Positions 15,076-60,802 of a stretch of DNA of 64,000 nt are shown piece by piece. How positions within the stretch are numbered: the first letter of the stretch is position 1; the number at the start of each line of letters is the position of its first letter. Source of the DNA: Harmothoe impar (taxonomy: Eukaryota; Annelida; Polychaeta; Phyllodocida; Polynoidae); contig OX381713.1 of NCBI GenBank assembly GCA_947462335.1, positions 20,080,381-20,144,380 of the forward strand. The letters are read 5' to 3'. Below the pieces are notes generated by a model. The model was given only the letters and a program-made list of their open reading frames with translations, ran no database searches and had not been told where the DNA came from. Position numbers and translations under genes: made by a program.

Positions 15076-15520
15076 TGTACCACATCTCTGTACCACCCAT
15101 AATACTTTCTGTACCACCTAGAACACTTTCTGTACCACCCAGAACACATCCTATACCACCCAGGACACTTTCTGTACCACCCAGAACACTTTCTGTACCA
15201 CCCAGAACACATCCTATACCACCCAGGACACTTTCTGTACCAACCAGAATACCTTCTGTACCACCCAAAACACTTTCTGTACCACCCAGAACACCTTCTG
15301 AATACCACCCAGAATACCTTCTGTACCACCCAAAACACTTTCTGTACCACCCAGAACACCTTCTGAATACCACCCAGAATACCTTCTGTACCACTCAAAA
15401 CACTTTCTGTACCACCCAGAACACCTTCTGAATACCACCCACAATACCTTCTGTACCACCAAAACACCTTCTGTACCAGCCAAAACACCTTCTGAATACC
15501 ACACAGAACACATTCTGCAC
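15076..15520. repeat. TGTACCACCCAGAACAC minisatellite with higher-order units
   Basis: Tandem 21- to 23-bp monomers (core CTGTACCACCCAGAACACTT). Monomer variants alternate in fixed order. The CTATACC variant recurs after 63 bp (15151, 15214) and the CTGAATACC variant after 65 bp (15301, 15366, 15431), so there are two higher-order repeats, each of three monomers. Long frames on both strands (SGWYRKCS-like peptides) are satellite by-products. Confidence 0.9.
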
Positions 15521-15524
15521 CATT

Positions 15525-21119: not shown

Positions 21120-21379
21120 AGAGAGTAGTTCATGTACGTCTAGTATATCGACAGTGAGAGGGAGTACGGGCACGTTGTAAGTAGTATATGAAAGCCGGAT
21201 GGGAAGTAACAATGTGTATGTAAGTACATGGTGTAAGTAGTATATGGACTAGGACATTGTGTGTCGCTATTGTGTAAGTAGTATATTATCCATTGTATCA
21301 GTAGTATATGGAATGTAACATTATGTTTTGGCATGATGTAAGAAGTATATGTACTTTAATTGGACATTGTTCGGTGGGC
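21120..21379 (+). repeat. GTAAGTAGTATATGG array, left part
   Basis: Tandem degenerate units built on TGTAAGTAGTATATGG with variable spacers, including GGACATTGTTCGGTGGGC at the right edge. The same array with the same unit order resumes at 28083, so this is the left flank of the LINE insertion. Confidence 0.85.
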
Positions 21380-21543
21380 TGCATGGCGTTCACTGAAGAG
21401 TAGTCGCTCCCGCGAATCGTCCAGAGATATCCAACCGACAGAGGTGATTAAAAGCTTTGTACCCATACAGTCTTTTATGGAAGCTGCATAAAGGTATAAA
21501 GACACGCTAGGTGAGGATATTTTACAGCCAGGACGACCAAATA

Positions 21544-22396
21544 CCCAGTAAACACCCTACGTAGTTCCAACGTAGCTCAGAGGTTTCTCTAGGTAGATGT
21601 CCAACCAAAAGGTTTGAGATTGGTAATTTTGGAAGGTTTGTAGACGTCAAAACGTTAAGGTTCATTTACGTTCAACAGATGTAGACGTCTGATTTACGTT
21701 GATCTACCTCATTCAGAGGTAAAAATTCTACGTAGATCTATGTTAAAAGACGTAACTTTTCAACTTCAGTTGGGTAGATGACTTTTCCTTGTCACACTAG
21801 GTGGCAGCACTATCAATTATGGAGAGTATATTACAGCTCCTTAACAAATCTACCACATTCAAGCAGTAAATTCCCATTAATTGTGAATTCAATATCATGC
21901 AAATAAACCGCATTCAATAGAATATTTATATATATAGGACAGGTGATTAAAGTATTGTGCATGAATAGGTGCTTTGAGGCACTTTACTGTGAGGACAACA
22001 CATTGGTGGAAATGGAAGAAATACAAAGCCTCTCTGCAGCCAAAACTATTCAACAGATTTATACTGTCAGGCTGTTCAATAGAACTACAAGAATATACTA
22101 TGTAGAATGAGATGAGATTGAAAATTAGAGTAGTTACTTTGTATGAATATTGTTTGTAAATGTAAATTTGTCTGCAATATATTACAAGTCTTTGTCTGAG
22201 TCACACTATGTAGAATTATATGTAATGTGTTAAACATAGATTTACGTCTTCAGGAGCTACGTAAATCAGACCTGCAGGTTTGAGATTGGTAAATAAACCT
22301 TAACGTTTTGACGTTGATAAACCTACTAAAATTACGTAGTTCAGACCAAAATTCAACGTAGATTTACGTCTGACCAACGTCGTTGTGTTTACTGGG
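21544..22396. mobile_element. 853-bp TA-flanked MITE inside LINE 5' UTR
   Basis: Inverted ends CCCAGTAAACAC and GTGTTTACTGGG are flanked by TA at 21542-21543 and 22397-22398. The arms continue as a degenerate inverted repeat of about 180 bp with shared ACGTAGATTTACGT, GGTTTGAGATTGGTAA and CGTCAAAACGTTAAGG words. No transposase frame. Because it splits the LINE 5' UTR it inserted after the LINE did, or travelled with it. Confidence 0.85.
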
Positions 22397-22457
22397 TAGG
22401 AGTATATTTGGACATTCTTGTTTGAACGCCGGTAGGGAGCTGCCACAGTGTTACACA

Positions 22458-24363
22458 ATGGCCGACCTGCTGGACCGCACCTCGGTGGACACGCTGGTGA
22501 CTGACCTCAAGAACACCAAGACACTGCGTCATACCGACAATATTGGAGGCAAGGTGGGGCATGCTCTGAACTACATTCTGAAGGAACATGATGAGGCCAC
22601 TCGTTCACTGGAGGCTGCACATGTGGAGATACGAGACATCCAAAAGAAAAATGGCTAATTACAAGGTGAGGTGACCCAACTGAAGGCTAGAATGGCTCAG
22701 ACTCAGAGGCAGGTACGAGTAAACACGCGATATATTGACGAATTAAGCATATCTATTGCTGTACAAGACCATGCAGCCCGACGGAAAAACCTTATCATTG
22801 AGGGGATACCATTTGTCGCCAAGGAAAAAACAGATGAAGTCGCTTTCAGCCTGTTACAGAAGATTGACAATGAATTAGATATATACGAGTTAGACTATGC
22901 TTATCGCCAAGGTCCCCCCAATATAAACAAGAGACCAATGGTGGTGGTATTCACCAAAACTGCAACCCGTGATCGTATCATGTCAAAGAAGAGCAGTTTA
23001 AATACCACGCAGGACTACAGGAATGTGTACATCAGCGAGGACGCGAACCCACTGATACGTAAACAGAAGGCAGAAATAGCGACTGTGGCCAAACTTGCTC
23101 ATGAGGCTAACCTTGACGCCAAACCCAGAGGGAGGGGTATCCTATACAATGGGAAATATTACCCCCACAGTAACATTTCGGCCCTACCTGACAGTGTACA
23201 ACTCGCCAATGCCCGAACGGTAGTAACGGACACATATGTAGCATACAACTCTCATTTGGCTCCTCTCAGCAACTTTTTCCCATGTCGAGTCCAATGTGAT
23301 GGCTATATATATAGTTCTGTGGAGCAAGGGTTAGCACACAAGAAGGCCATGTTTGCTGGTGATGAACCCAAGGCTAGGCTAGGGATGACTCCTTCACTGC
23401 ACTTAGGGCGATGAATCTGGCTAAAAGTATTGATTGCCCAGACTGGCGTAACCATGATGAGAGGTACCTAAAAGAGCTGAACATCCTCAAATTCAACCAA
23501 GACAAGAACTGCTAGAAATACTGAGGTCGACACAGACTCGTCTGCTGCTGGAGACTACAGGATCCCGACACTGGGGTATAGGCTCTGGAATAGGCAGCAA
23601 AGCACTACAAAAAGGAACGTGGAAGGGCAAAAACAGAGGTGGCTATATATTAATGGAGGTGAGGAAAGAACTATGTGGGTTTGACAACCCCTCAGCACCT
23701 AAGGACACGCCCCCTCCAGTAGCAGTACCACAACAAGCAGCAGCCCCACTGAGGAATGCTGATGATCCAGTTGATCCAGTGGCGACACCGAGACCTGAGG
23801 TACCTACTACAGCAACAGCAACAACAGCAGCAACAGTGTGGCCTGATGAACCCCCGCCTGTGGTAACAGCAACAACAGCAGTCACAACAGCAGCAACAGC
23901 AACAGCAACAACTAATGTCAACACGCAGAGTACTAGCTCCCCTACTACTGACCAAAGTGCCACCCCCCTTCCTCATACGCTGAAGAAGCCAATAGAACCG
24001 CCACCACCCCCGCCAGCAGGTAGCGGAGGCAGACCAATACAAGACGCTAGGTTAATGACCGACTCTATAATGGAAATGCTATCAGCCAGCGCCACCTCAC
24101 AATACACCAACGCCGCGGCAGGGTACAGGACCGGAGGAGGTATTCCATTTGATCTGAACAAAAAGCTATCTCCACACGTCACAACCCCTGTTAACACCAG
24201 AAGGTCCCCAGAACAAGACGCAGGTGAGGGTAGGAGCAGCACCTCCAGGGTGAATATACGTGAAAGCAAGTTGAACCCGCACAAGAAGACAAAGGATAGT
24301 ATACAGCTGTCCAGTCGGATTAAGAACTACCTTGGCGGCAAGAAGACACCACCAAAACTGTAA
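22458..24363 (+). pseudogene. LINE ORF1: coiled coil-RRM-NADAR fusion (broken)
   Basis: The start at 22458 (MADLLDRTS) follows the MITE and a short leader. About 635 codons in order: an N-terminal helix and coiled coil (to about residue 100); an L1-ORF1-type RRM core opening with RRKNLIIEGIP (about 22780-23030) and the basic C-terminal region (YISEDANPLIRKQKAE). Then comes a NADAR/YbiA-like domain (about 23244-23690) with PLSNFFP, SSVEQ, PDW, LKFNQ, the WGIG signature (23572-23583) and LMEVR (23650-23664). A Pro/Thr/Ala-rich tail ends with basic KKTPPKL. Breaks: in-frame TAA at 22656-22658; frame slips near 23385-23399 and 23500-23512, both in the minus-one sense. The NADAR frames join smoothly across the slips, so the domain was once intact. 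L1-type ORF1 proteins bind RNA and act as chaperones; NADAR proteins act on ADP-ribose- or riboflavin-pathway N-glycosidic bonds. The role here is unknown. Confidence 0.82.
23800..23920 (+). repeat. CAG/ACA trinucleotide tract in ORF1 tail
   Basis: Imperfect ACAACAGCAGCAACAGCA repeats encode the Thr/Ala-rich part of the ORF1 tail; a likely site of replication slippage. Confidence 0.8.
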
Positions 24364-24984
24364 TATACATGTATTACGGCCATAATGTAACATACATTAC
24401 CCTGATGTATGTAATAATATGACAGAATGATATCAATGTGTGTAGTCTCCTTACTGGTCATTTCAAAAAATGAACATATTTGACGCGCTAAGGCACATAG
24501 TAACCAATGCTAATGTATGTATACAGAATGTCTAAATAGCCTAGTAGGGAAGTGGGTCAATGTCCCGCTATTATATAGGTGTGTAAGGAGAACTGAAGTG
24601 CATTGTTAACTATGTAAACAGCGGGCAACCCCTAGGTGCTTGTGCCAACACAGTTATTATGTAAGAGATCAGCTGAGTGTAGCCAGACATAGCGCACACG
24701 TTAAAGTGCATAGATCTTACCGGTACTAATAATAATGTATAGATGTAAAACCCAATCTAATTAATTAGATATCATTAACAGCTATTAATCTCTTTTTCAC
24801 GTACATCCATACAATCATGTGTATATATGGTTATTCCTTTCTTTTAAACCAGTTTATATTGATGGACGCATTGCTCTTATTGAAGTCATGGCCTACCTGT
24901 GCGGATATACAGAAATCGTTATCATCAATCATTCATTTCATTTCATCAGAGAATGTAACGCCTTGACCCGCTCATGGATACATA
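24364..24984 (+). other. LINE inter-ORF spacer
   Basis: AT-rich, no open frame. ORF1 and ORF2 do not overlap, so ORF2 translation would need reinitiation, an internal entry or a separate transcript. Confidence 0.7.
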
Positions 24985-27801
24985 ATGGTTTTTCTTGATA
25001 GAATAAGTAAGGAGAAAGGGTTGCTTTTCACCTGTATTAATGCTAGATCAGCATATCCAAAGCGTGTTAATATTAAAAAGTTTATTTCCCATACGGATAT
25101 TACTGGGGTGTGTGAATCTTGGTTAAATCCTACAATTACAGATACCATGATGCATTTACCTGGCTATCAGTTTTTCAGACTAGATAGGTATCCTATTCTT
25201 GATAAAACGGCAGGGGGGCTTATGCTATACCTCAGAGACACCTACACTGCAGTCATTGATCGTGAAGCTAGTTGTATACATGCCAAATATGAAATCCTAT
25301 GTGTTGACGTAGAAATAGGTAAAATTAAGTATAAAATATACACATGTTACAGGCCTCCTAATAAGGACAAGGATAGCATGCAGTCACTATATATTAAAAT
25401 GTCTGAGTTATTGAAAAATGTTACTAAAAATAGAAAAATTGTTATCATGGGCGACATTAATGTTGACCTGCTGTCTAGAAAAGAAATTGAGGATTCTGAC
25501 GTAGAAAATTTCTGTACTACTAATGACATGTGCCAACTTATTAATGAAATTACACGCCCTAAGTCTGGAACCTTATTGGATCATATATATATAAATGATA
25601 GAATTCACAATGTCTGTGAGTTTGGCACCATCGATTTTCATATTGCAGATCACACACCCATATTCATTTTGATTAAATGTGAGCGTACTAAAATAAAGAA
25701 AAAGGTTATAAAAGCCCGTTCTTATAAGAACTATGATACATTGACATTCAAAAACATGTTACTGCAAGTTAAATGACCCAGACTTACTTTGGGATAGTAT
25801 ACATAGTGTGATACGAGCATGTCTGGATGCTTTATGCCCTGTAAAGACGATGGTCTTACCGGTATACACTCCAGAGTGGCTAACGCCTGATATTGTTCAA
25901 TGTATGCAGTATAGAGACGCTCTCTACTCTGACGCAAGGTTAACAGGGGACATTGATGACTGGCGTATAGCAGATTTCCATAGAAATAGAGTTGAATCTT
26001 TAATTTTTAATAGTCGTAAAGAAAAAATAAACTCCCTGTTAATACATAGGAAAGACGACCCTAAGAAATTTTGGCAAGGTATAAGAAAATTACTACCGGT
26101 AAAGACAAATTCCACCTTCCTTAAATTGAGAAATAGTATAACTAAAGACATGATTCCACCCAATGAATGTTCAGGATACATTAATTCTTTCTTTGCCAAT
26201 ATCGGATCAGACCTCGCTAACCTGCTGCCACCTGTCATTGTAAATTATAACTACACTTCTCCAGTCAATGTCCCTCTGTACAAGACGAGTCTGTTACAGC
26301 CGCTTAGCTATTTAGACACTGTCAAGGTTATAAAAGGTATTAAAGAAACCAAGCCATCCAGCATAACACATATTAAGTCACATGTTCTTAAGGATGCCTT
26401 TTTAATTGTTCCTGATATTATTATTATTCTGTTTAATCGTTGTTTAGAACATAGCCATTTCCCGACCCAGTGGAAGGCAGCGACAGTAGTACCTATCCCC
26501 AAGAAGCCTAATTCATTGGATGTTAGTGACTTAAGGCCTATAAGTCTATAACCCCTACCTGGTAAACTATTGGAAAAGGTTATTTGTACTAGATTGCAAG
26601 CATATATGAAAGAACATAGCCTCCTCACCCCATTCCAGCATGGATACAGGGCTGGTCACTCGACCATCTCTGCCATAACTGCCCACCTTAATAATATAAT
26701 ACATAATGTAATTAATAATAAACCCACCATATCTCTCTACCTGGACTACAAGAAGGCCTTTGATACCGTTTCCCACCTAATTATGCTAAAAAAATTAATG
26801 AGTTTTGGACTTGACGAAAATACTTGCAAATGGTTCAATAGCTATCTAACCAACAGGAAACAGTGCACAATAGCTAATGATTGTATCTCACAGTATAAAG
26901 AAGTTGTTTATGGCGTTCCACAGGGCTCAGTCCTAGGTCCTGTATTATTTTCTATTTACATAAATTCACTGCCTGAGATTGATGATTTTACGATATGTCT
27001 TTATGCTGACGATGCCGTTATATCTGTTCATAACCCTGATAAAATGCAAACATCTCTTAACAAGTTAGCAGCCTGGTGCAAACTGAAGAGCTTAACAGTT
27101 AATGAGAAAAAAACCAAATGGATGATTTACAATAATTTGGAAAAAATTGATCCTGTTTTTACCATGAATAATGTACTTTTAGAAAGAGTTAACACTTTTC
27201 AATACCTCGGTCTAACCCTTGACCCCGAGCTAAAATTTATTGAGCATCGTAATAATGTCATGGCTAATGTTAGAAATAAGATAAGTCAATCGCGTCGAAA
27301 AGAGATCATGTGGATGCTGATACGTCTCTAACTGTTTATAAATCCATGGTGCTTCCAACAATAGATTATGCTGATTTTATCTGGGATAGGGATAATAAGG
27401 GTGAGAATGCTGATTTACAAAGGATACAAAATAAGGGCTTACGCGTTGTTTACAAGGTCAAGTTAGAGAAAAATCCTGTGTTAACTATTGATCAAATGCA
27501 TACCAAGGCTGACTGTAACAAACTCAATGAGAGACGTGATAGACATCTATTATATTATGCATTCTCTTTAACTCTTGATCCTGACCTTGTGGATGATAGA
27601 CATTTACCCACCAGAAGACAACAAGGCAAAAGGCTAAAAGTACCACACTCTATGAGGCCCATTGTCTTACGCAGTGCATTATATAGAGGCATTGCCCGCT
27701 GGAATGAACTCAGGCCGGAATATACACTAATAGAAACCCTTTGGAAATTTAAGCTAGCGATAAAAAAGGATTATCCGCGCTGTTTCATGAATGTGACATA
27801 G
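24985..27801 (+). pseudogene. LINE ORF2: APE endonuclease-reverse transcriptase (broken)
   Basis: About 938 codons. The N-terminal apurinic-like endonuclease runs 24985 to about 25690: CINARS, CESWLN, AGGLMLYLR, YRPPN, GDINVDLL (25450 area), LDHIYIN and the catalytic HIADHTPI (25639-25662). The reverse transcriptase follows: DLRPISL, HGYRAGHST, motif A LDYKKAFDTVS (26741-26773), motif B GVPQGSVLGP (26912-26941), catalytic YADD (27002-27013) and the FQYLGLTLD block. The C-terminal region has LYRGIARWNELRPE. There is no RNase H domain. Breaks: frame slip near 25765-25780; in-frame TAA at 26549-26551 between RPISL and PLPGKLLEK; second frame slip near 27285-27310. ORF2 of this type nicks the target and copies the RNA there. 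The catalytic residues all remain. Confidence 0.93.
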
Positions 27802-28081
27802 TGATCTCACCAATCTTATACTGCACATCTCATCTCATCTCATCAACTATATTCATCATTTTCTGATTGTAACAGAATAGGAACAATTTGTTTATTCCTT
27901 AAATCTAATTAAATCAATCGTATAATATTAATGTGAATGACATAGCCTCTGTTTCATGCATTAAGACCGTTAAGCTGTTTCTGTATAGGTAGGGGTGCTG
28001 GCGGCAGAAGGGCAATGCGCCCAAGCTAGTTTTTGCCTGTAAAAAGGTGATTAAATCCAATAAATCTACGTCAAAAAAAAA
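27802..28081 (+). mobile_element. LINE 3' UTR and A-tail
   Basis: Short 3' UTR with a CATCT pentamer run at about 27825-27844, an AATAAA at about 28059 and a terminal A9. The flanking array resumes immediately. Confidence 0.8.
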
Positions 28082-28082
28082 T

Positions 28083-28530
28083 TTGTGTAAGTAGTATATG
28101 GTCCATTGTGTAAGTAGTATATGGAAAGTAGCATTATAACATGTGTGGGCATGGTGTAAGTAGTATCTGGACTTGGACATTGTTCGGTAGGCATTGTGTA
28201 AGTAGTACATTGTATATGGTCCATTGTGTAAGTAGTATATGGAAAGTAACATTATAACATGTGTGGGCATGGTGTAAGTAGTATCTGGACTTGGACATTG
28301 TTCGTTGGGCATTGTGTAAGTAGTATATGACCCACTGTATATGTAGTATGTGTGGGCATGATGTAAGTAGTATATCTGTGGAAAGTTACATTACATGTAG
28401 GCATGATGTAAGTGGTTTATCTATGGACAGGAACATTTCGTGTAGCAATCGTCTAACTAGTATATGGACAGTAACAGTGATATTAAATGGGGGCAAGGTG
28501 TAAGTAGTATTATATGAATATAAACATGAC
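28083..28530 (+). repeat. GTAAGTAGTATATGG array, right part
   Basis: Continuation of the 21.1-kb array in the same orientation. Composite units of roughly 107-118 bp contain three or four TGTAAGTAGTATATGG cores with fixed spacers (GTCCATTG, AAAGTAACATTATAACATG, ACTTGGACATTGTTCG). A related TGTAAGTAGTATAAG word reappears near 63.1 and 63.35 kb. Confidence 0.88.
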
Positions 28531-34803: not shown

Positions 34804-37800
34804 GGGAGTGTTCATTTTTTAACAACAGGGGGGGGGTGGTGAGTTTTTGTTTTGACGCGTAAGTTATTTTGCGCCCCCCCCTCGGGAAGGGCCAAATTAA
34901 AATCCGCCCCCCCCCCCCTCAGGAGGGGCCGAGTTATTTTGCGCCCCCCCCTTTCAATGTTTCTGCATCAATTTGTGTTGCATTGTGCTGTTTCACATCA
35001 ATCTATGTTTCATATATACAATATAGTTACAATGCCTATCCCTATGTTGCTTCATGGCATGTAGGTCTACCGTAAAACCCCTCCTTATTTTGGGATATGT
35101 TTTCCCGAACTAGGTGGTCATCTTATAGGTGGGGCTTTCTTGAATGGGTTTAAAGAGAAAACCTTTCACAGTTTTTTCTCATACAAGGGGGTTGTCTCAA
35201 AGGTGAGGTTGCCTTAAAAGAGGGGTTTTATGGTAAATATACTCATAGAAATGGCCATTAAATACACAAATTGCAAGTTTTAATTTCGATATATGGATTC
35301 ATAAAATTTAAGTGAATATTAGGGACACAATATCTACCCAGCTGCCAGGAAACCGTACATAACTGTACTCAAAGTGCAGTGCCTCAGAAGGGGGTCAGAG
35401 GGGCATATCCGTCTCCTAGCTGAATCAGAATCTAGAGGTCAAATGGTGTATTCATGTGCATTTTGAAAGCTTTATAGGAAGAGCTGGTTGAAACCTGGCT
35501 GGATTGTACACCCACAAGTTGAGAATTCTGAATAACCATAATGTTACTCAATACAATCTATTACTATTCAGTATCATGTTCCATAAATACCAACATTACA
35601 AGTCAATCATTCCTTATAGGTATTGCTCTCAAGGTCAAATAAAAAAATGAATGGCCTTGATCCAAGCCGGTGGCCTGGTCAACCAACAGGGCAGTTTAGT
35701 CCTAGTTTGAAACAAACAGTGGGTAACAACCAATATCTCGAATGATGAAGCACCCTGAGTAGATTCCATGATCACTATATTGGTTTCTATTATTGGTTTT
35801 TGGACTAGGTTCATGTATTGAACTACAGGAGTGTAATGTAAACCAGGTGTAATGCAAACCACACTAACATTTCATCTAGCGTTTAATAGGCCTACAACAG
35901 TTCTCTTTTTTAAACCAAATAATATGTTCGATTCTAGTTGGAATTACTACGAACATTTTTCAATTTTAGATAAGCAAATTGTTCCTCTACCTGCCAATCA
36001 AAGGGTGCATTAATAAGACAATTTTGTTGATGGGAATTCTGTAAGTTTTGGAATATCAATTTGGGGGATATCAATGGCATCCTTCCTGGGTTGTAAATTC
36101 TTGATTTCCTGAAGAGGCCAATATAGTGAAGTTAAAGTATGTTACCCTAAGTTCTGCCAGAAAAGGGCCGCAGTCAAACCAAGTGGGTTTGGGGCCATAT
36201 CCAATAAAGTAAATTCTGAAGGTCTAGACTTGAAAGGGTGCATTCTGATTGATTTTAGCAATGGTTTAGGGGTCTGTTGTTGCTGGGTTTTAGAGCCCTG
36301 TCGAGCAGGGCCAGACCCATATTGTCATCTATAGGCTGGGACAATTGTAAAAACTAGGGTCTTAAATACCGAATAATTTGCATCAGCCTTCATCTTTGGG
36401 GCTGGGATCAAGGCTGCAGGGACACGAAAGGCGGATAAAGTTGGGGGGCCGAGGTCCCAAAACCTAGTTGGTGGGAGGGAGTAACAAATAGGGACATGGG
36501 GGCCGCAGGCTCGCGAAAAATTTAATAATTTGGCGCATTCAGGGTGGTTTGAATAATCTTTAGAGATTTTTGAGAATTTACACTTAATTCGATATGTTCT
36601 GATGGAGTTTAAGCCTGCCATTTGAGAAAATTTTAGGAATTTTATCCTGAGAGTAGTGTTTTCTAGGGGTTTCTGAGTTTGTTTCCCAAAAAGTTGGGGG
36701 GGACGAAATTATGTTTTGGCCCCCCCAACTCTAAAGTTGGGGGGGGGGCCTGGGCCCGGTCCCTGCACTCTAATACCTAAGCAACACCATCCGTGTTATG
36801 GGTTTTGAAATATACCCCCTTACCACCGACTTTTGCTGTAAAATACCCCCCCTTTTAGGATAAAAATGCAGACTTTTTGGCCTTTGAAAATACCCCTTTT
36901 TTTCAATACGCTGACTTTTTCAGCCTATAAACACCCCCTTTTTCTCACTCCAAATACCAACCACCAGGTAACATCCCCATTTCCTAATAAGCTAATTTAA
37001 AAAGTTTGCCGAAATTGCCATATTATGTTTATAGGCCTTAGACACAAACATAAGGAGTAAGATATTTGCCCTTTTTTGCTTTATTAATTGGGATGATAGT
37101 ATATTAACCCCCCTTTTCTATTTTTTACTGAGATTTGGATGAAAAAGACCCCCTATTTATGAATTCCACGGACGTGCAGAGTGAGTTAAAAAGCACCCCT
37201 TTCTCGGCGTTTTCATAACATGGATGGTGTACATTTTTGTTCCAAGTGCAGGGACCGGGGGCCTGGGCCCCTTGCCCTTCCGGTTCCACCACCACTTGGC
37301 TGGGATACGAGGCAACAGATTTTTTGGGGGGAAATTTTGAATTAAAATGGTGCAATCTACTGTTTGTTTTCACACATGGCTGGTGCCCAGCCTGGGCTGC
37401 CCAACCATGTCCCTTTTTGGTTCGAACTCCACGGACATGATTTTTTTAGTAGTCTGGTTTGTTATGTCAGCAGAAACCATCAACCGGTAGACTGGCCTGT
37501 TGAAAACACACGTATTACTGGCAAATGCAGGACTACAGTGCGCACACTCTTCCCCTCCCCCAAGTGAAAATTTTGAAAATTCACGAAGTAAAATTGTCAG
37601 ATTTAATGGGTGCAACACAAAGTGTCGCAAGAAAATTTTATGATTTTAAAGGTAATTTGCTGCATTTTATGGCATTTCCACAGAAAAAGTGAAGTGTTAA
37701 AGTATTCAGCGTCACGTCGCGACAAATCGCGCCCCCTCCAAAAGTGTTGAGTTATTTTACGCCCCCCCCTCAAGAGGGTCAAGTTATTTTACGCCCCCCC

Positions 37801-37879
37801 CTCGGAAGGGGTCAAGTTATTTTACGCCCCCCCCCCTAAACTCACCACCCCCCCCTGTTGTTAAAAAATGAACACTCCC
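34804..37879. mobile_element. 3.1-kb Harbinger-like non-autonomous element
   Basis: Inverted ends GGGAGTGTTCATTTTTTAAC and its complement extend into a G/C-tract with GGTGAGTTT (about 44 bp in all), with TTA at 34801-34803 and 37880-37882. Subterminal AGTTATTTTGCGCCCCCC-type words are repeated two or three times inside each end. TWA target duplication fits PIF/Harbinger. No transposase or Myb-like frame remains in 3 kb, and other repeats are nested within. Confidence 0.78.
35070..35233. mobile_element. 164-bp TA-flanked MITE nested in Harbinger-like element
   Basis: Ends CCGTAAAACCCCTC and GAGGGGTTTTATGG with TA at 35068-35069 and 35234-35235. Internal GGTGGTCATCTTATAGGTGGGG and TTGTCTCAAAGGTGAGG form a diverged repeat. 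Its ends share CCGTAAA with the MITE at 56918. Confidence 0.75.
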
Positions 37880-38370
37880 TTATAGAGGTTTGCTGGATAG
37901 ATTGTATTGAGTGTAAACCATCTGAGTGAGCCTGGCCTGTTGAAAACACACGTATTACTGGCAAATGCAGGACTACAGTGCGCACACTCTTCCCCTCCCC
38001 CAAGTGAAAATTTTGAAAATTCACGAAGTAAAATTGTCAGATTTAATGGGTGCAACACAAAGTGTCGCAAGAAAATTTTATGATTTTAAAGGTAATTTGC
38101 TGCATTTTATGGCATTTCCACAGAAAAAGTGAAGTGTTAAAGTATTCAGCGTCACGTCGCGACAAATCGCGCCCCCTCCAAAAGTGTTGAGTTATTTTAC
38201 GCCCCCCCCTCAAGAGGGTCAAGTTATTTTACGCCCCCCCCTCGGAAGGGGTCAAGTTATTTTACGCCCCCCCCCCTAAACTCACCACCCCCCCCTGTTG
38301 TTAAAAAATGAACACTCCCTTATAGAGGTTTGCTGGATAGATTGTATTGAGTGTAAACCATCTGAGTGAG
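37491..38370. repeat. 440-bp tandem duplication of the Harbinger right end
   Basis: 37491-37930 and 37931-38370 appear identical apart from the first base. The unit contains the last part of the 3.1-kb element with its TIR and about 50 bp of right flank. Apparent identity means a very recent duplication or an assembly artefact. Confidence 0.9.
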
Positions 38371-57603: not shown

Positions 57604-57675
57604 CTCCCCGACGGGGAATTGAACCCCGGTCTCCCGCGTGACAGGCGGGGATACTAACCACTATACTATCGAGGA
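57604..57675 (-). tRNA. tRNA-Asp (anticodon GTC)
   Basis: On the minus strand a 72-nt tRNA folds with acceptor stem TCCTCGA/TCGGGGA (one G-T pair) and discriminator G. It has a D-arm with A-box TAGTATAGTGG, the anticodon arm CCTGTCACG reading GTC for Asp, and a T-arm with B-box GGTTCAATTCC. No intron. Every invariant position I checked is present, and it closely resembles animal tRNA-Asp. It should be transcribed by RNA polymerase III from the internal boxes and serve cytosolic translation at GAC/GAU codons. It stands alone, with no other tRNA nearby. CCA is not encoded, as expected in eukaryotes. Confidence 0.95.
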
Positions 57676-58245: not shown

Positions 58246-60802
58246 TACAGTGGCCCAGGAGGGTCAAAAAGTGAAATCCCATTTCACAAATGAAAATTGA
58301 AATGAAAATTCATTTTTTGAAAATTGAAATGAAAATTCACTTTACAATATGAGAATTCATTTTTCAAAACGAAAATTGAAATGAAAATTCACTTCTCAAA
58401 GTGAAAATTGAAATGGAAATTCACTTTCACATCTTAACTTCAATTTTACTCTCACATTTGCAAGTGAGAAATCACTACTGTCAAGGTGTCAACTGTCAAC
58501 ACACAGTCAATTGTAGAGTTAAAGTGAATTCTCATTTCAGAAACGGGTGCTGTCAATCTGTCAACTGTCAAGAACAGATTGTGACAGGTATCCTTTAGGC
58601 TTTAACATTGATATGAAGCCCTACAAGGAGTGTAGTGTGGGGGCATTGGTGGGAATATAGGGGAATGGTTTAATATTTGTTAAAAAAGAGCTTATCTAGT
58701 AAGAAAGAGTTCAAAAATGCAAGAAAGTGAAAAAAATTAAAATTTTCCCAAAAAGGCCCAATTTGGCGAGAAAAAAGGTCAGAAAAGGAAAAAAGTGAAA
58801 TTTCCCCAAAAAGGCCCAATTTGGCTAGAAAATGGGTCAAAAATGGAAAAACGTGAATTTTCCCCAAAAAGGCCCAATTTGGCGAGAAAAAGGGTCAAAA
58901 ACGGAAAAAAGTGAAATTTGTCCAAAAAGGCCCAATTTGGCGAGAAATCGGGTCAAAAACAGAAAAAAGTGATATTTCCCCAAAAAGGCCCAATTTGGCT
59001 AGAAAATGGGTCAAAAATGGAAAAACGTGAATTTTCCCCAAAAAGGCCCAATTTGGCGAGAAAAAGGGTCAAAAACGGAAAAAAGTGAAATTGGTCCACA
59101 AACACCCAATTTGGCGAGAAAATGGGTCAAAAATGGAAAAAAGTGAAATTGCTCCACAAACACCCAATTTGGCGAGAAAATGGGTCAAAAATGGAAAAAA
59201 GTGAAATTGCTCCACAAACACCCAATTTGGCGAGAAAATGGGTCAAAAATGGAAAAAAGTGAAATTGCTCCACAAACACCCAATTTGGCGAGAAAATGGG
59301 TCAAAAATGGAAAAAAGTGAAATTTCCCCCAAAAGGCCCAATTTTGCGAGAAAATGGGTCAAAAATGGAAAAAGGTGAAATTTCTCCAAAAACGCCCAAT
59401 TTGGCGAGAAAAAAGGTCAAGAACGGAAAAAAATGAACTTTCCCCAAAAAGGCCTGATTTGGCGATAAAATGGGTTTAAAATGGAAAAAAGTGAAATTGC
59501 TCCAAAAAGGCCCAATTTGGCAAGAAAATGGGTCAAAAATGGAAGAAAAGGGAAATTGCTCCAAAAATGCCCAATTTGGCGAGAAAAAAGGTCAAAAACA
59601 GAAAAAAGTGAGATTTCCCCGAAAAGGCCCAATTTGGCGAGTTAATGGGTCAAACATGGAAAAAAGTGAAATTTGTCCAAAAAGGCCCAATTTGGCGAGA
59701 AAATGGGTCAAAAATGGGAAAAGTGAAATTGCTCCAAAAATACCCAATTTGGCGAGTAAATGGGTCAAAAACGGAAAGCAGGGAAATTTCACTTTTTTTC
59801 ATTTTTGACCAATTTTCTCGCCAAATTGGGCATTTTTGGAGCAATTCACTTTTTTCAATATTTGTCCCATTTTCTCACCAAATTGGGGCTTTAAGGGAAA
59901 TCTCACTTTTTTCTGTTTTTGACCTTTTTTCGTGCCATATTGGGCCTTTTTGGGGAAATTTCACTTTTTTCCATTTTTGACCCATTTTCTCGCCAAATTG
60001 GGTGTTTGTGGAGCAATTTTACTTTTTTCCATTTTTGGCCCATTTTCTAGCCAAATTGGGCGTTCGTGGAGCAATTTCACTTTTTTCCATTTTTGACCCA
60101 TTTTCTCCCCAAATTGGGCCTTTTTGAGAAATTTCACTTTTTTCCGTTTTTGACCTTATTTCTCGCCAAATTGGGCCTTTTTGGACAAATTTCACTTTTT
60201 TCCATTTTTGACCCATTTTCTCACCAAATTCGGCCTTTTTGGGGAAATTTCACTTTTTTCCGTTTTTGACCTTTTTTCTCGCCAAATTGGGCCTTTTTGG
60301 GAAAATTTTAATTTTTTTCACTTTCTTGCATTTTTGAACTTTTTCTTACTAAATAAGCTCTTTTTTAACAAATATTAACCCATTCCCCTATATTCCCACC
60401 AATGCCCCCACACTACACTCCTTGTAGGGCTTCATATTAATGTTAAAGCCTAAGGGATACCTGTCACAATCTGTTCTTGACAGTTGACAGATTGACAGCA
60501 CCCATTTCTGAAATGAAAATTCACTTCAACTCTACAATTGACTGTGTGTTGACGGTTGACACCTTGACAGTAGTGATTTCTCACTTGCAAATGTGATAGT
60601 AAAATTGAAGTTAAGATGTGAAAGTGAATTTCCATTTCAATTTTCACTTTGAAAAATGAATTTTCATTTCAATTTTCGTTTTGAAAAATGAATTCTCATA
60701 TTGTAAAGTGAATTTTCATTTCAATTTTCAAAAAATGAATTTTCATTTCAATTTTCATTTGTGAAATGGAATTTCACTTTTTGACCCTCCTGGGCCACTG
60801 TA
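58246..60802. mobile_element. 2.56-kb foldback element
   Basis: Inverted ends TACAGTGGCCCAGGAGGGTC and complement, flanked by CCCTAA at 58240-58245 and 60803-60808. The outer arms (about 495 bp each, 58246-58740 and 60310-60802) look nearly identical in reverse complement. Inside are about 18 tandem 58-bp units (ATGGGTCAAAAATGG..AAAGGCCCAATTTGGCGAGAAA) to about 59793, then about 9 units in inverse orientation. This is the architecture of foldback (FB-like) transposons: long inverted repeats with inner tandem units. No transposase; the frames found are satellite by-products. Confidence 0.88.

Follow-up and report, generated by a model that had tools for sequence, protein, structure and literature searches.

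An L1-type ORF1 joined to a NADAR domain in a decayed LINE of the annelid Harmothoe impar

Introduction

What would a retrotransposon do with a NADAR domain of the YbiA type in the protein encoded by its first open reading frame (ORF1)? The question is raised by a long interspersed nuclear element (LINE) of the polychaete Harmothoe impar, which lies in a window of 64,000 nucleotides (the whole stretch of DNA analyzed; assembly GCA_947462335.1, contig OX381713.1, positions 20,080,381 to 20,144,380 of the forward strand). The role of NADARs in animals is unclear, although they erase ADP-ribose from guanine (PMC11125620); here and below, papers are cited from their accessible passages.

ORF1 joins an L1-type core to a NADAR domain

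The original prediction, made from the letters alone, was that this LINE ORF1 carries a NADAR domain, and our analysis confirmed it: an L1-type core and then the NADAR follow each other in a single ORF that reads through (Table 1). The two slips noticed in the frame correspond to two frameshifts, both splitting the NADAR, to which one in-frame stop (TAA) has to be added, and the Pro/Thr-rich tail is also there, rich in Ala and Gln as well. Coiled coil, single RRM and C-terminal domain (CTD) come in the order of a type II (L1-type) LINE ORF1. The RRM was assigned with the profile of alignment A2, which comprises seven of the nine matches of the first ORF1 search (P0010 and P0013 were left out) and matches 2ykp at 1.7e-4. 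The closest ORF1 match, the database protein P0005, has an identical domain order, with 47% identity and 87% query coverage. Its predicted model contains a helix at residues 25 to 111, partly of low confidence, in the coiled-coil region, while the tail shows predicted local distance difference test (pLDDT) values of <50 nearly throughout and is 37% identical to that of the window over the 144 of 225 residues that could be aligned.

The 3' fragment of the window NADAR matched PF08719 at 4.9e-8, just below the Pfam cut-off, whereas P0005 did so at 1.7e-23 (profile positions 11-162 of 163); all seven members of A2 matched the family. Over 156 of 160 residues, the NADARs of the window and P0005 are 53% identical, and the domain of P0005 is predicted to adopt the YbiA fold, so that both the profile search and the structure prediction suggested as checks came out in favor of the assignment. 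In all 10 rows compared (the window and nine fusions), the positions equivalent to E43, E125 and W133 of the P. nicotianae NADAR are retained, and that of K50 is K or R in nine. The Glu at the E125 position, in the last strand, rather than Asp or His, marks the YbiA subfamily in every row. Key residues and predicted fold support a catalytic role for the ORF1 NADAR.

The fusion recurs in other proteins

The complete fusion of L1-type core and NADAR was found in at least nine database proteins besides the window. This number is a lower bound, because the wider search with A2 scored 7997 candidates, probably crowded by low-complexity words; it returned only P0005, P0063 and P0064, and the remaining A2 members were not recovered. 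P0010, whose frame stops inside the NADAR, was excluded from the complete fusions, and P0013 (NADAR plus macrodomain), which sits among the bacterial rows in the NADAR tree, was excluded from the ORF1 count. Among nine ORF1s, the NADAR was more alike than the RRM and CTD core in 29 of 36 pairs (means of 35.6% versus 32.5%), and by this measure of sequence identity the domain is shown to be as well conserved as the RNA-binding core.

Trees of the core and of the NADAR gave the same two groups, one formed by the window, P0005, P0064 and P0063 (joined by P0010 in the core tree) and the other by P0006-P0009, P0011 and P0012. Within the latter the branching of core and NADAR differed, and the NADAR tree restricted to ORF1s has no starred branch. 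To place these NADARs among outside relatives, we used 21 of 35 fetched loci (17 of 30 bacterial and four of five viral), with L009, L012 and L030 dropped for stops; the scans with A4 had yielded 30 loci with NADAR relatives in bacterial and archaeal genomes and five in viral contigs, and viral contig scans with A3, P0005 and P0009 confirmed no relative. The best tree splits the 10 ORF1 rows into three places: the window, P0005, P0064 and P0063 form one group (95/86), P0012 stands by itself, and P0006-P0009 join P0011 (99/98) within the part containing the bacterial and viral rows (92/87). The long branches of P0064, P0012 and P0063 may affect this tree, and forcing the 10 ORF1 NADARs into one clade cost 3.99 log-likelihood units, with a p value of 0.328 in the approximately unbiased test (p-AU). 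These sequences thus neither show nor reject that the ORF1 NADARs arose only once.

P0013 deserves a separate mention. This database protein combines NADAR with PF01661 (macrodomain) in a single chain; it groups with NADARs of Bacillota and is likely, judging from its domains, to represent two fused ADP-ribose erasers.

ORF2 and the affiliation of the element

The second ORF encodes an apurinic/apyrimidinic endonuclease (APE) followed by a reverse transcriptase (RT), with Pfam matches to PF14529 (6.5e-7) and PF03372 (9e-7) on 24967-25773 and to RVT_1 (1.7e-34) on 26552-27328. The same three families, in the arrangement of an APE-type LINE, were found in the database proteins P0014-P0016, which cover 100% of the ORF2 query at 56-59% identity. 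P0005 and the second-ranked ORF2 match, P0015 (940 aa, 59% identity over the whole query), each lie on a contig of 5515 bp, the sole such coincidence between 11 ORF1-side and 49 ORF2-side matches; from this matching size we infer that both belong to one element.

An RT tree of 45 rows was built, six of the 49 ORF2 matches being omitted: P0033, P0039, P0053, P0054 and P0055, without an ADD motif for cutting, and P0058, from a bird, which was too short. The window ORF2 grouped with P0014-P0017 with an SH-like approximate likelihood ratio test (SH-aLRT) value of 100, in a tree without a named CR1/L2 reference. The tree cannot by itself exclude L1, because human L1 was the chosen root and sits on a very long branch. 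The ORF2s of P0014-P0016 (936-940 aa) have GVPQGSVLGP and YADD, and two patterns found no CCHC knuckle in them; the corresponding motifs in the 1275-aa ORF2 of human L1 are GTRQGCPLSP and FADD. L1 ORF2 carries a C-terminal CCHC, and Tx1 has the same marks as L1. Motifs, size and lack of a CCHC therefore speak against L1; the motifs, as we take it from what is generally known of LINEs, also argue against Tx1 and favor the CR1/L2 lineages. On these sequence marks, the window LINE likely belongs to the CR1/L2 lineages (Jockey superfamily).

Comparison with known systems

The original prediction knew of no such LINE, but one had been described: a 2025 paper (PMC12477816) reports that several families of Tx1 LINEs in Crassostrea gigas encode a YbiA-family NADAR in ORF1, and that the domain also occurs in Gypsy elements of the brown alga Ectocarpus; the authors propose a role in the processing of RNA intermediates. 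No further paper on NADAR in LINEs appeared in our literature search, which covered titles and abstracts, with few subscription papers and preprints. The oyster families share with the annelid element a LINE ORF1 with a YbiA-family NADAR and were reported as Tx1, whereas the ORF2 relatives found here are of ca. 940 aa, with GVPQGSVLGP and no CCHC; Tx1 was compared by its description only. The Ectocarpus elements have likewise acquired the domain, although they are long terminal repeat (LTR) retrotransposons with the NADAR in Pol.

Type II ORF1s of CR1/L2 lineages (PMC4120745) have the coiled coil, RRM and CTD known from human L1 ORF1p and seen here. That survey covered 448 elements; its main text nowhere uses the word NADAR, and the extra domain it describes with type II is a PHD. 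An acquired enzyme in a LINE ORF1 has a parallel in the type IV proteins, such as that of ZfL2-1, with an esterase instead of a NADAR (PMC3905857, PMC4120745). The DarT1-associated antitoxins, for which guanine de-ADP-ribosylation is known, share the E43 and K50 positions, but they are part of the BC4488 subfamily, carry Asp where E125 would be and are paired with DarT1 (PMC11543638); here the residue is Glu, and Pfam matched no ADP-ribosyltransferase (ART) domain in the LINE ORFs. The present case adds a NADAR-bearing LINE whose ORF2 is without L1-type marks; also new are that the active-site glutamates are retained, that core and NADAR sort into the same groups, and that the NADAR has a predicted fold.

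A putative eraser of guanine ADP-ribosylation

ORF1p trimers of the L1 type bind the element RNA, as established for L1. The ORF1p described here (a trimer if L1-like) would coat the RNA of the element and bring the NADAR with it. An ADP-ribosyltransferase, from the host or the environment, would mark guanines in the element RNA, the cDNA or the nicked target, which would block reverse transcription or translation; the NADAR would erase the mark in cis, held on RNA and cDNA by its fusion to the RNA-binding core. By analogy with characterized NADARs, we assign a rough probability of 0.45 to the reading that the domain removes ADP-ribose from guanines of the element's own RNA or cDNA. Getting from domain to reaction takes only a small step, because characterized members do this chemistry on guanine in both DNA and RNA: in DNA they cleave ADP-ribose from the guanine N2 (PMC11543638), and in RNA they were the only hydrolase family found to remove it from guanosine, being inactive on phosphate ends (PMC11833690). 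Guanine-marking enzymes are known from animals, with pierisins in cabbage butterflies and CARP-1 in a clam (PMC11543638). On the same analogy, an action of the ORF1 NADAR against nucleic-acid ADP-ribosylation would be a sound inference.

Several observations weigh against the removal of ADP-ribose from the element's guanines. YbiA acts on riboflavin intermediates (PMC11543638), so the substrate of the ORF1 NADAR may be a metabolite, and NADAR hydrolysis in vitro was no guarantee of antitoxin action in cells (PMC11125620). The ADP-ribose contact R79 is R in none of the 10 rows (K in four), R93 is R in four and D in the window and P0005, the D130 position is S in the window, and K50 and W89 are lost in P0064. 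Moreover, ORF2 is linked to one of the nine fusions only, through the 5515-bp size, and the identity of the other eight as LINE ORF1s rests on their L1-type core, since they come without a linked ORF2; no ORF1 was found on contigs of the lengths given for the sister ORF2s P0014, P0016 and P0017, although these contigs, at 2970-4656 bp, may be too short. Finally, the ORF1 query included the NADAR, so that related ORF1s lacking it could rank lower or drop out, and P0010, with its frame ending within the NADAR, shows that the core alone can be found.

The altered R79 and R93 contacts of the window and P0005 would also suit a NADAR acting on a small molecule, such as free ADP-ribose serving as a signal or an intermediate of the riboflavin pathway, thereby blunting a host alarm or detoxifying the cell instead of cleaning nucleic acid. 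Bacterial and plant NADARs do remove such riboflavin-pathway intermediates (PMC11543638), and phage NADARs have been argued to meet mainly soluble ADP-ribose derivatives (PMC9503650). However, the fusion to an L1-type RNA-binding core would keep the domain on nucleic acid, and the NADARs of eukaryotic RNA viruses have been argued to target mainly macromolecular ADP-ribosylation (PMC9503650), which makes this alternative unlikely in our view. The changed R79 and R93 positions, together with the loss of K50 in P0064, could instead indicate a non-catalytic domain that reads ADP-ribose or a base modification and steers integration by bringing the particle to chromatin that is nicked and ADP-ribosylated; yet the key glutamates in every row, and K or R at K50 in all rows but one, are more than a mere binder needs, and we consider such a reader quite improbable.

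A slightly smaller chance still is given to a NADAR that acts on proteins and strips them of ADP-ribose; ORF1p or ORF2p could be such targets if host poly(ADP-ribose) polymerases (PARPs) modify them. The antiviral protein ZAP belongs to the PARP family. It restricts human retrotransposition (PMC4441479), which would fit such a substrate, but the specificity of NADARs is for the guanine base on nucleic acid, with none for RNA phosphate ends (PMC11833690), and the literature passages covered contain no protein substrate for them. Only one copy of the LINE is present in the 64-kb window, as would be expected if a fragment of a host gene had been joined by chance to this single copy. That candidate is hardly credible: P0005 has the same order, eight further proteins have the complete fusion, and the two groups coincide between core and NADAR trees. 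The nine fusions equally contradict the capture of a gene at this locus alone, one of the two outcomes that the original prediction had named as refuting it.

If the removal of ADP-ribose from guanine by a LINE is true, it would point to a host defense that adds ADP-ribose. A retroelement that keeps a NADAR beside its RNA-binding core across deep divergence directs attention to a host-element conflict over the element nucleic acid, and, taken with the oyster Tx1 report, suggests that NADAR-bearing LINEs form a wider group than one clade. More tentatively than for the reaction itself, it is possible that a LINE lineage outside L1/Tx1 employs a guanine-ADP-ribosylation eraser in its RNA-coating protein as a counter-defense, which would reveal an animal innate defense, perhaps of the pierisin/CARP-1 kind, marking guanine in retroelement RNA or cDNA.

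The insertion and its surroundings

The LINE is flanked on both sides by minisatellite units. The best rejoining of the flanks (21379-21380 with 28082-28084, with tied scores) restores the array unit, and joining 21379 to 28083 gives a unit minus one base at the joint. The 5' end is complete, because the rejoined flanks restore the minisatellite unit. No duplicated bases were seen at the rejoined flanks, although a short target-site duplication could hide in a tandem array. Besides the lesions of ORF1, two frameshifts and one stop interrupt ORF2, and autonomous mobility is very unlikely because both frames are so damaged; the window LINE is a decayed, 5'-complete copy.

Table 1. Features of the Harmothoe impar LINE and its flanks (window coordinates)
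Feature	Position	Strand	Remarks
LINE element, 5'-complete	21380..28082	+	Array units both sides; flank rejoining; poly-A
Minisatellite array, 5' flank (pre-insertion target)	21174..21379	+	
Miniature inverted-repeat transposable element (MITE)-like DNA element within LINE 5' untranslated region	21544..22396	.	12-bp terminal inverted repeat CCCAGTAAACAC, TA each side
ORF1	22458..24363	+	637 residues read through; in-frame stop 22656-22658, two frameshifts
ORF1 N-terminus and coiled coil (boundary approximate)	22458..22778	+	29% identity to P0005
ORF1 RRM, L1-type (boundaries approximate)	22779..23027	+	46% identity to P0005
ORF1 CTD, L1-type (boundaries approximate)	23028..23213	+	66% identity to P0005
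NADAR domain, YbiA type	23229..23673	+	Split by two frameshifts
Codon E, P. nicotianae NADAR E43	23322..23324	+	SSVEQ
Codon K, P. nicotianae NADAR K50	23343..23345	+	
Codon E, P. nicotianae NADAR E125	23551..23553	+	YbiA-subfamily mark
Codon W, P. nicotianae NADAR W133	23572..23574	+	WGIG
Pro/Thr/Ala/Gln-rich tail	23674..24363	+	Poorly conserved
ORF2, APE endonuclease and RT	24985..27801	+	Two frameshifts, stop 26549-26551
RT catalytic motif YADD	27002..27013	+	
Poly-A	28073-28081		Terminates LINE
Minisatellite array, 3' flank	28083..28467	+	

The MITE-like element also has subterminal inverted repeats of 59 nt (81%). As for host genes, no Pfam match at E ≤ 0.01 was obtained among the 10 of 47 stop-to-stop ORFs of the window that were scanned. 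Elsewhere in the window, a 65-bp tandem repeat (6.8 copies, 91% matches) lies at 15087-15522, and a 440-bp unit is present at 37492-38370 in two copies with 100% matches; the tandem duplication is either very recent or an artifact of the assembly. An inverted repeat at 58246-60802 has arms of 722 nt (58246-58967 and 60081-60802) that are 94% complementary and consist of oppositely oriented tandem units of 58 bp, resembling a foldback element; a tRNA-Asp (GTC) on the minus strand, at 57604-57675, adjoins this array.
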